A DNA stretch of 64,000 bases from assembly GCF_016907475.1 (NCBI RefSeq), contig NZ_JAFBCA010000001.1, forward strand, positions 1-64,000. Reading direction: 5' to 3'. Source of the stretch: Nocardioides cavernae (GTDB taxonomy: Bacteria; Actinomycetota; Actinomycetes; Propionibacteriales; Nocardioidaceae). Positions 21,784 to 40,696 of this stretch are shown piece after piece. How positions within the stretch are numbered: the stretch's first letter is position 1; the number at the start of each line of letters is the position of its first letter. A program made the translations under genes and the position numbers. The notes under the pieces were generated by a model that did not search any database, was not told the DNA's origin, and saw nothing but the letters and a program-made list of their open reading frames with translations.

Positions 21784-21857
21784 CTGTAACGCCGGGTTAG
21801 TGGGGGTACCCACCCCCGAGCAACCCAGTGGGTACCCGCCGTAACCCGGCGTTACAG
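21784..21857 (-). terminator. Hairpin between the ECF41 sigma gene and lon
   Basis: A perfect 16-base-pair outer stem (CTGTAACGCCGGGTTA with TAACCCGGCGTTACAG) encloses two further GGGTACCC palindromes. The sigma-factor stop codon lies inside one arm. Likely terminator for the sigma operon, insulating lon. Confidence 0.7.
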
Positions 21858-28068: not shown

Positions 28069-28084
28069 GGAACTGCCCGCGATG

Positions 28085-28166
28085 GAGTCACCGGATATCC
28101 GGTGACTCTCCCGCTGGTCACACCAGATCTGGGGCGCCAAGCGGGAGACTCGGGTGCACAGTCGTC
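28085..28166 (+). repeat. Dispersed two-stem repeat family 2, copy A
   Basis: A perfect 24-base palindrome centred on CCGGATATCCGG (28085-28108), then a second stem TCTCCCGC (28107-28114)/GCGGGAGA (28141-28148) around a 26-base loop holding AGATCT, then ACTCGGGTGC and AGTCG. Two more copies lie at 29831-29913 (+) and 30952-31031 (-). It fills the gap between two convergent genes and touches the NlpC/P60 stop codon, so it may also terminate both. Confidence 0.85.
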
Positions 28167-29661
28167 AAGGACGGGCGAAGAAGTTCGGCGCCCGCCAGTA
28201 GTACATCGACTCCTGGCTCACCGGCCGACCTGTGCGCGGGGCGTGGATGATCTGGCCGTCGCCGATGTAGAGGGCGACGTGGTAGATCGAGCTCGGGCTG
28301 CTCGAGGACCCCCAGAAGACGAGGTCACCCGGCGCGAGCTCGGCGGCGGTGATCTTCGTCGACTGGGTGTACTGCGCGACCGAGTAGTGCGGCAGCACCT
28401 TGCCGGCAGCCGCCCACGCGCCCGCGGTGAGGCCTGAGCAGTCCCACGCGTTCGGACCCGAGGCGCCCCACTTGTACGGGTCGCCGATCTGCGCGGCGGC
28501 GAAGGCGATCACGGCCGCGGCACCCGTCGACGCCGGCGGGGGCGGGGGCGGGGGCGGAGGCGTCGTCGGCGTCGGTGCCGGGGTCGGCGTCTCGGTCGGG
28601 GTGGGGGTCGGCGTGGGGGTCGGAGTGGGGGTCGGCGTGGGTGTGGGCGTCTCGGTCGGCGTCGGCGTCGGCGTTGCCGTCGGAGCGGGAGTCGGCGTCG
28701 GCGTGGGCTTCGTGGTCGGCGTGCTGGTCGGCGTCGGCGCGGGTGTCGGCGCGGACTGCTGCTCCTGCTCCGCCTGGGCCTGCGCCTGGGCGTCCGCCAC
28801 GGCCTGGGCCTCCGCTTCCGCCTCCGCCTGTGCCTGAGCCACGGCCTCGGCCTGCGCCTGGGCTGCGGCCGCTGCTGCATCGGCGGCTTCCCGCTCGAGC
28901 GCGGACTGCCGCTTCTCGGCGAGGCGGACGCTGATCCCCTCGAGCTCGGCGAGCTCGGCGATCAGGTCGGCCTTCGTGGCGGACACCGACTGCGCCTCCG
29001 CCCCGGCTGCGGCCTCGGCGGCCCCGGCGGCGTCGTACGCCTCCTCGGCGTCCGCCTCGGCGACCTCGGCCCGCTCGGAGGCCTGGGCCGCGGTCGACGC
29101 GGTGACGTCAGCGACGGCCGACGAGGCGAGGAAGGAGTCGTACTGGTGGTTGAGCGCGTCCGAGGTGTTGCCCATCGTGACCGTGCGGTCGATCAGCGAC
29201 TCGACCCCGTCGGCCTCGACGATCGCCGAGAGTCCCTGCACCTGGGTGCCGTCCTCGTAGGACTGCACGACCGTCGCGGCGTACAGCTCCCGCTGCGACT
29301 CGACGTCCTCACGCGCTGCCTCGGCGGCCTCCTCGGCCTCGTCGGCGTCGGCCCGTGCCTGCTCGGCGCGCCAGCGGGCGCCGTTCCAGGCCTCGGCAGC
29401 CTGGGCGGCGCGGTCACCGGCGGTCTCGAGCGCGAGGTTCGCGCGGATCAGGTCGGCCTGCACGGTGGCGACGTCGCGCCCCTTGGCGTCGGCCCGGTCC
29501 TTCGCGGCCGCGACGTCGGACTCGCTGGGCGTCGGGTCGTCGTCGGCGTACGCCGCGTGCCCGCCCCCGACGGCCAGGCCGGCGACGAGGACGACCGCGC
29601 TCGCCCAGCGCGACGTCGTACGCCGTCGTGGCTCGTGGTCGTGCGGTGCTGCGACGGGCAC
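28165..29661 (-). CDS. Secreted NlpC/P60 peptidoglycan endopeptidase
   Basis: Predicted 498 residues: a signal peptide (to about residue 40, ending HAAYADD), a long Ala/Glu-rich coiled coil (about 45-300) with [20 protein letters not shown] as in RipA-type hydrolases, a Pro/Thr repeat linker of ~75 residues, and a C-terminal NlpC/P60 domain. The catalytic Cys is in [12 protein letters not shown], His in [11 protein letters not shown] and a second His in IIHAPRTG. It likely cleaves D-Glu-mDAP-type stem peptides during division or growth; the coiled coil may hold it inactive. Confidence 0.92.
28550..28745 (-). repeat. Pro/Thr low-complexity coding repeat
   Basis: Repeated GTCGGnGTG-type hexamers encode a PTPT/PTET linker between the coiled coil and the NlpC/P60 domain. 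Pure coding repeat, prone to length change. Confidence 0.85.
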
Positions 29662-29814: not shown

Positions 29815-29830
29815 TCGGTTTCGCGCTCAT

Positions 29831-29913
29831 GAAGTCCCCGGATATCCGGGGACTCTCACACTGAGCGCCCGAGATCTGGGTCGACAACCGGGGAACTCGG
29901 GTGCGAAGTCGTC
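29831..29913 (+). repeat. Dispersed two-stem repeat family 2, copy B
   Basis: The AGTCCCCGG/CCGGGGACT palindrome is at 29833-29854, then TCTCACAC, an AGATCT-containing loop and ACTCGGGTGCGAAGTCGTC. The second stem is not formed in this copy (right arm CCGGGGAA does not pair). It lies ~80 bases upstream of the DUF559-type gene. Confidence 0.85.
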
Positions 29914-29993
29914 GTCCGACGGTGACCGGCCCGTTGTCCACAGATCGCCGAACCCGGGCGTACGACCTCGCCGGCGAGGGCATCCATGCGCGC

Positions 29994-30947
29994 ATGACCA
30001 AACCACAGTTCGACCCGACCGGTGTCGTTCGCCTGCGGCGCCAGCTCATCGCAGACGGCATGACCGACAACCAGATCACCAGCCTCGTACGCGCCAAGGT
30101 CCTCAAACGCGTCAGGTACGGCGCGTTCGTCGACCACGCCGTCTGGGACGACCTGTCACCCGAGGACCGGCACCGCGTCCTCGCACGCGCGGTCCTTGCG
30201 CGGGCGCACACCTCGACGGCACTGACGCACGTCTCGTCGATCATCGAGCGGGGCATCCCGCTCTGGGGCTTCACCCTCGACGTCGTCCACACCACCCGCA
30301 CCGGGCCGGAGCGCGCCGGCCGGCGACAGGGCGACTGGGCGCCGCATCGCGGCGTCCTCGGCGAGGACGACCATGAAGAGATCAACGGCGTCGTCATCAG
30401 CACAGCGGCCAGGTCGGCGTTCGAGCTGACGACGATCAGCGACGTCGAGCGGTCCCTCGTGGCCGTGAACCGACTCCTGCACGCGGGCGCGATGACGATG
30501 GCGGACTTCATGGAGCAGGTGGAGTGCCACCAGCGGTGGCCCGGAAGCCTGACCTCGGACCTCGTCCTGCGGCTGGCCGACCCTCGGTTGGAGTCCGTGG
30601 GCGAGGACCGATTCAGCTATCTGGCCTACAGGCAGGGCTTGCCGAAGCCGGAGCCGCAGTTCGAGGTCTTCGACGAAGACGGAACGCTCGTCGCGCGGGT
30701 GGACTTCGCGTGGCCGGAGCACGGGGTGTTCGTCGAGTTCGACGGAAAGGTGAAGTACGAGCGCTACCGCAGGGACGGCGAGACGCTCGACGAGTTCCTC
30801 ATGCGCGAGAAGGCGCGTGAGGAGCTGGTGTGCCTGCTCACCGGTTGGACCTGCATCCGGATCACCTGGGCCGACCTGGCGCGCCCCGAGAGGCTGGCGA
30901 CCCGGATCCGCGGGGTGATCGCTGCGCGACGCAAGCAGGTCGCGTGA
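29994..30947 (+). CDS. AbiEi-like winged-helix plus DUF559/Vsr-like nuclease-fold protein
   Basis: Predicted 317 residues. The first ~60 (RQLIADGMTDNQITSLVRAKVLKRVRYGAFVD) resemble the AbiEi antitoxin-type winged helix. The C-terminal ~110 resemble a DUF559 PD-(D/E)xK domain: VARVDFAWPEHGVFVEFDGKVKYE gives the D...ExxGK-like core (D in VDFAW, E in VEFDGK). No toxin or methyltransferase gene is beside it. Homologous solitary proteins are common in actinobacteria and their role is unknown. The gene is bracketed by inverted copies of a structured repeat, suggesting a mobile unit or a nuclease/substrate pair. Start ATG at 29994; upstream in-frame sequence is repeat. Confidence 0.78.
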   Translation: MTKPQFDPTGVVRLRRQLIADGMTDNQITSLVRAKVLKRVRYGAFVDHAVWDDLSPEDRHRVLARAVLARAHTSTALTHVSSIIERGIPLWGFTLDVVHTTRTGPERAGRRQGDWAPHRGVLGEDDHEEINGVVISTAARSAFELTTISDVERSLVAVNRLLHAGAMTMADFMEQVECHQRWPGSLTSDLVLRLADPRLESVGEDRFSYLAYRQGLPKPEPQFEVFDEDGTLVARVDFAWPEHGVFVEFDGKVKYERYRRDGETLDEFLMREKAREELVCLLTGWTCIRITWADLARPERLATRIRGVIAARRKQVA

Positions 30948-30951
30948 CCCC

Positions 30952-31031
30952 GACTTCGCACCCGAGTCTCACACTTGTCGGCCGAGATCTGGTGTGACAG
31001 GTGTGAGAGTCCCCGGATATCCGGGGACTTC
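30952..31031 (-). repeat. Dispersed two-stem repeat family 2, copy C (inverted)
   Basis: On the minus strand: palindrome AGTCCCCGG/CCGGGGACT (31008-31029), stem TCTCACAC/GTGTGAGA around a 26-base loop with AGATCT, then ACTCGGGTGCGAAGTCG. The stem sequence differs from copy A at matching positions on both arms. It begins 5 bases after the nuclease stop. Confidence 0.88.
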
Positions 31032-31059
31032 AGGCAAGTAGACCGGAGGCGTACGCCGG

Positions 31060-32106
31060 TCACTCGGCGTCGACGGGAACCTGGCTGGTCGTCGAGGTCG
31101 GATGGCTCGCCAAGCCATGTCGATCGAACTTCTGCCCGCTCGCGAGCCCGCCGAGCCAGAAGGAGAAGAGGGCGATCACCACGCCGGCGAGGTCGTCGGC
31201 GATGTAGTGCCAGCCGAAGTAGAGGGTCGCCACGACGGTGATGGCGAAGTTGGTCCAGAACACGATGTGGAGGACCTTGTTGCGGAGCGTGTACTGCACC
31301 ATCAGCGCGACGAGCAGGGTGATGGCGACGTGGAGCGAGGCGAAGCCGGCCACGGATTGCACGGCGCCTTCCGCGCCGTCGCGGATGACCCCCTTGCGTC
31401 CGTAGAACAGTGACTCCATCAACGCGCTCGACCCGGTGTCGGGGAGGTCGGCGTAGAGGTAGCTGTACTGGAAGCCGGGACCGAGGGTCGGCAGCGCGAA
31501 GTAGGACGCGGTGCCGAGCGACCAGGCCAGGCACTGGGAGGTGGCGAACCAGTAGCCGAAGGTGATGTTGCGCGACCACACCAGCCAGGCGGCGAGCGCC
31601 AGCGGCACGAGCGGCAGGAACCACAGGTAGATCGTGGACAGGATGTGGGCGGAGAACCCGGTGCCGAACATCGTGTGCAGGATCGTCGCCGGCTCGTGGC
31701 CGAACATCAGCGCCCGGTCGACCAGGTGCAGCTCGCGGTCGTACTTGTCCTCGCCCATGATGAAGGGGAGGAACGACTTGAGGTTCCGGTAGCAGACGTA
31801 GGTGATGTAGAAGGACACGAGCCCGAGCACCACCAGGGTGATCCGCTCGCGGTCCCAGTGCTCACGGATCCGCTCGCGCGCGATGTCGCGCATCAGCGCC
31901 GGATTCATCCGCGAGTACCACAGCGTCCGGGGCAGGATGTCGAGCAGGAACGCCCCGAGGATCAGCAGCGGCAGCCGCAGCCACGACGGACCGAGGAAGC
32001 CCTCCGGGTCGACCAGGGGGCGGTCGAGCACGAGCGCAGCCGTGACAGCCAGCGCGCCCATGGTGGCGGCGACTCCCACGAGCAGGGCATAGGCCGGTCT
32101 GTACAC
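31060..32106 (-). CDS. PAP2-superfamily membrane phosphatase/transferase
   Basis: Predicted 348 residues with about seven hydrophobic segments. YFALPTLGPG, GFASLHVAITLLVALM and the late HYIADDLAGVVIALF (H-x3-D) are the PAP2 active-site blocks, in the arrangement of the inositol-phosphoceramide synthase (Aur1)-like branch. It probably works on a lipid phosphate or phospho-headgroup at the outer membrane face; the substrate is unknown. GTG start with TAGACT seven bases upstream (32114-32119). The C-terminal Ser/Thr tail is cytosolic or external. Confidence 0.85.
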   Translation of the reverse strand: MYRPAYALLVGVAATMGALAVTAALVLDRPLVDPEGFLGPSWLRLPLLILGAFLLDILPRTLWYSRMNPALMRDIARERIREHWDRERITLVVLGLVSFYITYVCYRNLKSFLPFIMGEDKYDRELHLVDRALMFGHEPATILHTMFGTGFSAHILSTIYLWFLPLVPLALAAWLVWSRNITFGYWFATSQCLAWSLGTASYFALPTLGPGFQYSYLYADLPDTGSSALMESLFYGRKGVIRDGAEGAVQSVAGFASLHVAITLLVALMVQYTLRNKVLHIVFWTNFAITVVATLYFGWHYIADDLAGVVIALFSFWLGGLASGQKFDRHGLASHPTSTTSQVPVDAE

Positions 32107-40177: not shown

Positions 40178-40666
40178 ATGACGCGCGACCCGATCAGCGA
40201 GGCCCACCGGCAGTGGGTGGCCCACGGCTGGGCCGGTGCCGCCGACGGGATGGCGATGGTGACCTCGGTCGTGCGCGCGCAGCAGCTGCTGATGGAGCGC
40301 ATCGACGCGGTGCTGCGCCCCCGCGGGCTGACGTTCGCCCGCTACGAGGTGCTGCGGCTGTTGTCCTTCAGCCGCGGCGCCGCGATGCCGATGTCGCGGC
40401 TCGGGTCGCTGCTGCAGGTGCACCCCACGAGCGTCACCAGCGCGGTCGACCGCCTGGTGGCCCAGGGCTACGTCGAGCGCGTGCGCAGCGACGAGGACAA
40501 GCGCGTCGTACGCGCCGTGCTGACCGACGCCGGCCGCGACGCGGTCGAGGAGGCGACGCACGCCCTCAACCGCAAGGTCTTCGAGACCCCCGGGCTGCCC
40601 GAGGGCGACGTACGCGAGCTCACCGACCGACTGACCGGCCTGCGGGCGGGCCTCGGCGACGTCTGA
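40178..40666 (+). CDS. MarR-family transcriptional regulator
   Basis: Predicted 162 residues, a winged-helix MarR dimer. MPMSRLGSLLQVHPTSVTSAVDRLVAQGYVER is the recognition helix region and RSDEDKRVVRAVLTDAGRD the wing. It lies 55 bases upstream of icmF on the same strand, with a palindrome over the icmF -10 box, so it probably represses icmF and responds to an acyl-CoA or related metabolite. TAGCCT eight bases upstream of its ATG overlaps the stop of the preceding gene. Confidence 0.88.
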   Translation: MTRDPISEAHRQWVAHGWAGAADGMAMVTSVVRAQQLLMERIDAVLRPRGLTFARYEVLRLLSFSRGAAMPMSRLGSLLQVHPTSVTSAVDRLVAQGYVERVRSDEDKRVVRAVLTDAGRDAVEEATHALNRKVFETPGLPEGDVRELTDRLTGLRAGLGDV

Positions 40667-40696
40667 GCCTGCAGCGAGCTGGTGACTCGCGAGTAT

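Follow-up and report, generated by a model that had tools for sequence, protein, structure and literature searches.

What kind of genetic unit is formed by a nuclease-type gene that stands between two inverted copies of a palindromic repeat? Such an arrangement lies in the window analysed here, the first 64 kb of a genome that is a single 4.85-Mb contig (G000). The preliminary description of this DNA had framed the gene at 29994-30947 with ~82-base copies B (+) and C (-) and placed a third copy near an NlpC/P60 gene; we confirm these coordinates, and the third copy is copy A below. The relevant features are:

21784-21857, no strand assigned: gene-less element that differs from R1 (see below), of the type that brackets the weaker homologue L033 at genome position 2607883
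28083-28164, + strand: copy A, gene-less, between convergent sulfotransferase and NlpC/P60 genes
28165-29661, - strand: NlpC/P60 gene, left flank of the element-gene-element unit
29830-29911, + strand: copy B, 5' bracketing element, with palindrome at 29833-29854, core centre AGATCT and tail end AGTC
29994-30947, + strand: nuclease-type gene, 317 aa, ATG to TGA
30950-31032, - strand (inverted): copy C, 3' bracketing element, with palindrome at 31008-31029
31060-32106, - strand: PAP2-superfamily gene, right flank of the unit

All three element copies are ~82 nt long and carry a 22-nt palindrome (28086-28107 in copy A); CCGGATATCCGG occurs three times in the 64-kb window, only at these palindromes. 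Arms B and C are 82% complementary across 87 nt at a spacing of 1029 nt, and the gene starts ~82 nt past copy B and ends 2-3 nt ahead of copy C, giving an element-gene-element unit of ~1.2 kb. As DNA single strands, copies A, B and C each fold better than all 200 of their dinucleotide shuffles (z -3.1 to -4.5). It had been noted earlier that the unit holds no toxin gene; the immediate neighbours are the NlpC/P60 and PAP2 genes, with no AbiEii toxin gene among them. A long linker of Pro-Thr repeats is present in the NlpC/P60 protein and shows in the DNA as a 12-nt tandem repeat (28536-28760). Copy A is also found in genome G030.

The bracketing elements belong to a family spread over the chromosome. 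A DNA search together with R1, a covariance model made from 19 aligned genome copies, locates 19 full sites: 16 asymmetric copies, with a 22-nt palindrome centred on GATATC, a core centred on AGATCT and a tail ending in AGTC, and three symmetric ones; smaller, palindrome-only fragments are also present. The GATATC palindrome had been recognised from the window, where the same palindrome was assigned to both outer ends of the element; the palindrome was right, and the architecture needed correction, the palindrome-core-palindrome form being that of 3/19 genome copies. R1 copies are mainly intergenic and often have convergent neighbours, in about 9 of the 17 clear cases on a reading of rough ORF calls. 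The unit in the window is, then, a nuclease-type gene between inverted two-palindrome elements, gene-less copies of which are dispersed and mostly intergenic. One R1 copy, L012 (genome position 879538), possibly lies within a long open frame and not between genes, again by a rough ORF call. Eighteen of the 19 copies fall in the dnaA-proximal half of the chromosome (dnaA at 637754; binomial 3.8e-5, post hoc).

The gene had been called solitary, which fails at the scale of the genome: six further homologues are present, one 45% paralogue and five weaker matches, and all six are bracketed by inverted repeats of types other than R1. The 45% paralogue (3078905-3079837) lies between elements at 3078761 (+) and 3079849 (-) with the palindrome CCCCGCACGTGCGGGG, and five dispersed copies of its element were inspected. 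Bracketing was scored throughout, a score of at least 30 counting as inverted elements around the gene; the five weaker homologues reach 49, 34, 37, 65 and 41, where the shuffles peak at 22, 21, 22, 25 and 20, with rough ORF starts and, in L034, a repeat overlapping the called 5' end. Dispersed copies were observed for R1 and three other element types, and inspection of the remaining types covered the bracketing pair alone. One intergenic gap (L003, genome position 809617) holds an R1 element along with adjacent copies of an L036-type repeat; the bracketing repeats of L036 itself (2727119) seem, by eye, to be built on either side from a ~32-nt unit repeated in a short tandem array.

This anatomy recalls REP/RAYT systems, in which a gene lies between two inverted palindromic repeats that also occur as gene-less intergenic copies and as inverted doublets; each gene has its own repeat class, a genome can hold several different single genes, and gene and repeat diverge together (PMC2817692, PMC3116915, PMC3733652). 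All these features are common to both. The enzymes differ: RAYTs are of IS200/IS605 type (HUH, tyrosine), whereas the protein here is predicted to join an AbiEi-like winged helix to a PD-(D/E)XK-like domain, and Transposase_17 (PF01797, HUH/Y1) was not matched by any of 56 members at E<=0.01. The repeats differ as well, since many REPs end in GTAG, whereas a GTAG or CGTC tag is found at the R1 ends of 0/19 copies (three of the 19 having been supplied without tail), and the elements here are longer, two-palindrome structures of ~82 nt in ~20 copies, where REPs often exceed 100 copies according to the part of PMC2817692 cited. Because the tested genomic features are found, with fewer copies, and the HUH domain and the tag are absent, we call the system RAYT-like in logic and not a RAYT. 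TIRYTs and TIRtrons likewise consist of a gene with terminal inverted repeats, which may form dispersed families (PMC3733652); TIRYT proteins are tyrosine (HUH) transposase-like, unlike the protein here. A description of a repeat-nuclease system of this kind was not found in the open-access literature searched, in agreement with the earlier reader, who knew of none. What is new is the enzyme and the family; the logic resembles REP/RAYT.

Our reading, to which we assign a probability of roughly two in three, is that the repeats form a REP-like family, of which the ~1.2-kb unit is the member that carries the gene, and that the unit acts as a REP/RAYT pair does, with an unrelated enzyme; a convergent repeat-nuclease system is the most likely explanation. 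The preliminary description had offered a small mobile unit or a REP/RAYT-like repeat-nuclease pair, and this proposal is supported, while binding, cutting and spread by the protein are steps that we infer. The winged-helix/AbiEi-like part would recognise the element of its own subfamily, the PD-(D/E)XK-like domain would nick or cut where the ends are structured, and repair or recombination by the host would copy the element in trans, leaving gene-less copies, or alternatively copy the whole unit into a related allele. Evenly balanced, in our judgement, is the broader proposition that this is a new superfamily of prokaryotic selfish repeats, in which a winged-helix PD-(D/E)XK nuclease spreads copies of its own bracketing inverted two-palindrome elements over the chromosome and takes the place of rival units where sites are fixed, so that the REP/RAYT lifestyle evolved independently, with dozens of matched specificities in Nocardioidaceae. 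The cohesion of REP-type repeats and their single-copy partner gene is described as an open question in the passage cited from PMC3116915. If our reading is true, the same anatomy exists a second time around an unrelated enzyme, which would show the arrangement to be convergent; the many natural nuclease-element pairs would allow its rules to be tested, and a role would be suggested for proteins that match AbiEi-type models alone or nothing.

The 317-aa protein is predicted to contain a winged helix (~13-50), a middle domain and a C-terminal PD-(D/E)XK-like domain (~196-317). Its AlphaFold model (pLDDT 93.3, pTM 0.89) has N-terminal helices at 15-20 and 25-33 and strands at 37-41 and 44-47; the C-terminal part runs from helix 202-213 through strands 220-226, 232-240 and 245-249 to helix 265-283, strand 286-290 and helix 298-316. 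Residues E204, D237, E248, D250, G251, Y255, E272, R275 and E276 are invariant in 56/56 members of an alignment of 55 of the 79 named loci plus the window protein (an earlier alignment held 20 of 31 loci). In PD-(D/E)XK enzymes acidic residues are expected on neighbouring strands, and D237 and E248 are so placed in the model; the strand order and the invariant acids would fit the alpha-beta-beta-beta-alpha-beta core of such a nuclease. Of the earlier assignment as an AbiEi-like/DUF559 nuclease, a nuclease-type C-terminus would fit this model, and 'DUF559' is a motif-level label without a Pfam match: the window protein has no match in Pfam (E<=1), NCBIfam or PDB sequences (E<=10), and PADLOC returns weak AbiEi/ZorE matches. 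AbiEi_4, the point in common with AbiE type IV toxin-antitoxin systems, matches 36 of the 56 members (E<=0.01, at best 1.3e-7) but not the window protein; the C-terminus here differs in being nuclease-like. Possible C-terminal relatives are REase_MTES_1575 (PF18741) and Vsr-DUF559, through an E..D..ExD motif that we take to be a mark of these nucleases; the weaker homologue L035 matches PF18741 at E 0.0016, below the family cut-off. Bracketing repeats are not known to us from these families. Values of dN/dS between 0.24 and 0.33 in seven pairs reveal purifying selection and therefore indicate a working protein. The C-terminal part is on the whole more conserved than the front part, as would be expected if the front part sets specificity.

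The behaviour of the unit as a block can be followed at the NlpC-PAP2 locus, which was surveyed in 30 genomes, those with the best PAP2 matches among the 188 that have one. This comparison of occupied and empty sites, proposed beforehand, finds the unit beside PAP2 in 14/30 genomes and absent from 16/30. The gene at the same locus without the repeats, named earlier as the counter-evidence to look for, is not seen there, all 14 occupied genomes having both elements. In G017, G095 and G168, with PAP2 94-95% identical, NlpC adjoins PAP2 without an R1 palindrome; in G141 and G053, NlpC was not found within 1.5 kb of PAP2, and in G127 the flank is truncated. Eight unoccupied gaps were readable by eye: gene-less elements of other types lie in G177 (R3-type), G121 (R2-type) and G046 (another), a further inverted repeat lies in G167, and no element was seen in G017, G045, G095 and G168. 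On the PAP2 tree, occupancy takes 8 changes, at least 3 of them forced by starred branches, against a shuffled mean of ~10; shuffles went as low as 8 in 51-64 of 500, and occupancy is neither clearly clustered nor clearly random.

The history of the unit differs from that of the flanking gene. The PAP2 tree groups G084 with G000, G030, G017, G095 and G168 (100/98), and the nuclease data, which comprise carriers only, reject a clade of G000, G030 and G084 (AU p 0.003); dS between G000 and G084 is 0.87 for the nuclease versus 0.21 for PAP2. Of 374 same-site pairs, 372 have flanks that exceed the gene in similarity, for example 91/89% versus 59%, flank identities being somewhat high as they come from local alignments. 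The change in similarity lies close to the element boundaries in L130/L149, and in L125/L128, which lie on two contigs of one MAG and have 82% nuclease identity and no common flanks, similarity drops to background about at the element ends. The unit may thus be absent, or differ as a block between similar flanks. Seven sites demand no fewer than 6 changes of the site label on the nuclease tree, and 6 is the number observed; the nucleases of a given site are a single clade, so that a switch of site by a gene-bearing unit is rare. Units usually remain at their site and are exchanged there, a pattern compatible with replacement of a homing-like kind as well as with vertical descent plus recombination.

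Homing endonucleases are site-fixed nuclease genes with a history unlike that of their flanks, and the unit here is similar. In a homing-type drive, the nuclease would cut its own chromosomal site in an allele that is empty or holds another unit, and recombination through the common flanks would copy the unit, with the bracketing elements as boundaries or self-protection and the dispersed copies as by-products. The flank similarity, the conflict with PAP2 and the minimal number of site changes all speak for such a drive, but homing alone leaves both the ~20 dispersed element copies per genome and the subfamily-specific elements unexplained, and we regard it as a possible though improbable account. 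To our knowledge, homing endonucleases are not bracketed by their own genome-dispersed inverted repeats.

Possible movement of the elements themselves can be judged from the comparison with G030, which shares 15 of the 19 full R1 sites (flanks ~92-96%), so recent movement is slow. The cleanest occupied/empty pair is an element in G030 that is absent from the window near 40663-40675; no target-site duplication was seen at this one clean pair, and the difference may be a gain or a loss alike. Sites 809617, 1161237 and 4736826 are messy against G030; for 577687 no counterpart was located.

Under the RAYT-like reading, each nuclease has its own element, and the two go together across genomes. The protein search and the scans with R1 and two further element models, R2 and R3, covered the same 196 genomes, one per species, and the genus scans scored at most 23 candidates per genome. 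In this covariance-model search of related genomes, as the preliminary description had advised, the best R1 match reaches at least 72.6 bits in 14 of the 16 genomes with a homologue of at least 62%, versus 2/180 others (G111, G108). At 80 bits or more, R2 is found in its 4 source genomes and 2/192 others (G074, G075), and R3 in its 5 source genomes and 0/191 others. Since R1-R3 match their own source elements by construction, the R2 and R3 carriers being source genomes, the many dispersed copies are the informative part of this co-occurrence, and its significance, from Fisher tests, ignores genome relatedness. The exceptions among the 16 carriers are G127, with ten weaker R1 matches, and G076, with none; G125, the sole carrier whose gene is interrupted by an internal stop, has only two R1 matches. 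Orphan families exist, namely the many R2-type elements of G074 and G075 without matching nuclease and the R1-type elements of G111 and G108 without a close one.

Element sequence follows the nuclease subfamily and not the genomic site. Mean element similarity climbs with nuclease identity from 10 (30-40%) to 40 (>=80%), with 0/2000 in a Mantel test; the own-pair mean of 50 is biased upward, because pairs were chosen by the same score. Same-site pairs with nucleases below 55% have an element similarity of 13.2, equal to background (438 pairs), and different-site pairs with nucleases at 60% or above have 22.0 (122 pairs). Core class changes 23 times on the nuclease tree against a lowest value of 30 in 200 shuffles, for 69 of 73 rows and with rough classes (26/73 'other'). 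The elements are subfamily-specific, and element and nuclease diverge together.

This pattern weighs on the idea that the elements are MITE-like, that is, non-autonomous transposons moved by an unlinked transposase, with the nuclease as passenger. Gene-less dispersed copies and orphan families would suit it, but many element types all bracket one gene family and element type tracks nuclease phylogeny, while in the own genome full R1 copies stand inverted to each other within 3 kb just twice, as B/C and A/C, and the nuclease lies inside both pairs; we think the idea quite unlikely. The orphan families and the site-fixed nuclease clades are also the reason that we limit the claim of mobility in the preferred, RAYT-like reading.

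Less probable still are immobile regulatory or terminator structures, such as AbiEi-type operators. According to PMC7319586, the operator of AbiEi antitoxins contains inverted repeats to which the antitoxins themselves bind. The convergent-gene setting of many R1 copies would suit terminators, but the second copy is downstream and inverted, other copies are far from the gene, and genomes have or lack the unit as one block. No Rfam family reaches its cut-off, the one match, PYLIS_2, being at chance level (19.6 vs 36 bits), and we rejected an RNA family or terminator. A conserved RNA fold was likewise set aside: hairpin pairing is far above that of slid versions and modestly above that of 3'-letter shuffles (80.3 vs 78.0% paired), and we make no claim of a conserved RNA as the R1 core arms are often non-complementary.

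The preliminary description had named repeat enrichment at the gene family as its test. Inverted elements bracket 73 of the 79 named homologues, 77 of which are Nocardioides/Marmoricola records (the ground for placing the genome in Nocardioides), and 0/609 shifted control windows; the 45% paralogue agrees with this enrichment, and a whole-locus scan puts the top inverted partner directly 3' of the gene in 73/79. That hairpin repeats merely pile up through DNA structure, with bracketing a coincidence, can be dismissed, as such repeats are frequent intergenically in these genomes but these control counts contradict it. All 31 loci of a first set score at least 34; their mismatched-locus control (mean 33.7, maximum 263) was unusable because loci share flanks, and the shifted-window control was used instead. 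Five of the six misses (L124, L126, L147, L153, L164) have an upstream palindrome, palindromes here being without control; L175, a 27% homologue outside the group, is not bracketed and has no upstream palindrome.

Beyond these genera, 14/14 homologues among the matches listed for other genera of Nocardioidaceae are bracketed (scores 38-70; control maximum 26 in 84 windows), and homologues are present in 243 of 293 genomes of the order, bracketing having been scored in few. Bracketing as a system-wide trait of the PF18741 clan was rejected, being a minority feature there: across the phylum, 4 of 47 small PF18741 genes score at least 30 and 11/47 at least 20, with a control 95% point of 20. That set held 65 entries, of which 4 incomplete ones were skipped, 13 were open at the stretch end, one was long and 47 were counted; among the 138 control windows there were two outliers, with scores of 187 and 360, which belong to L252 and stem from another repeat. 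A plasmid- or phage-borne unit was discarded too, with one plasmid match (Tsukamurella, 32%, 58% coverage), no phage match and no match in PHROGs. A few homologues are possibly decaying: L160 has an internal stop, and the match lengths of L165, L171 and L173 are not multiples of three.
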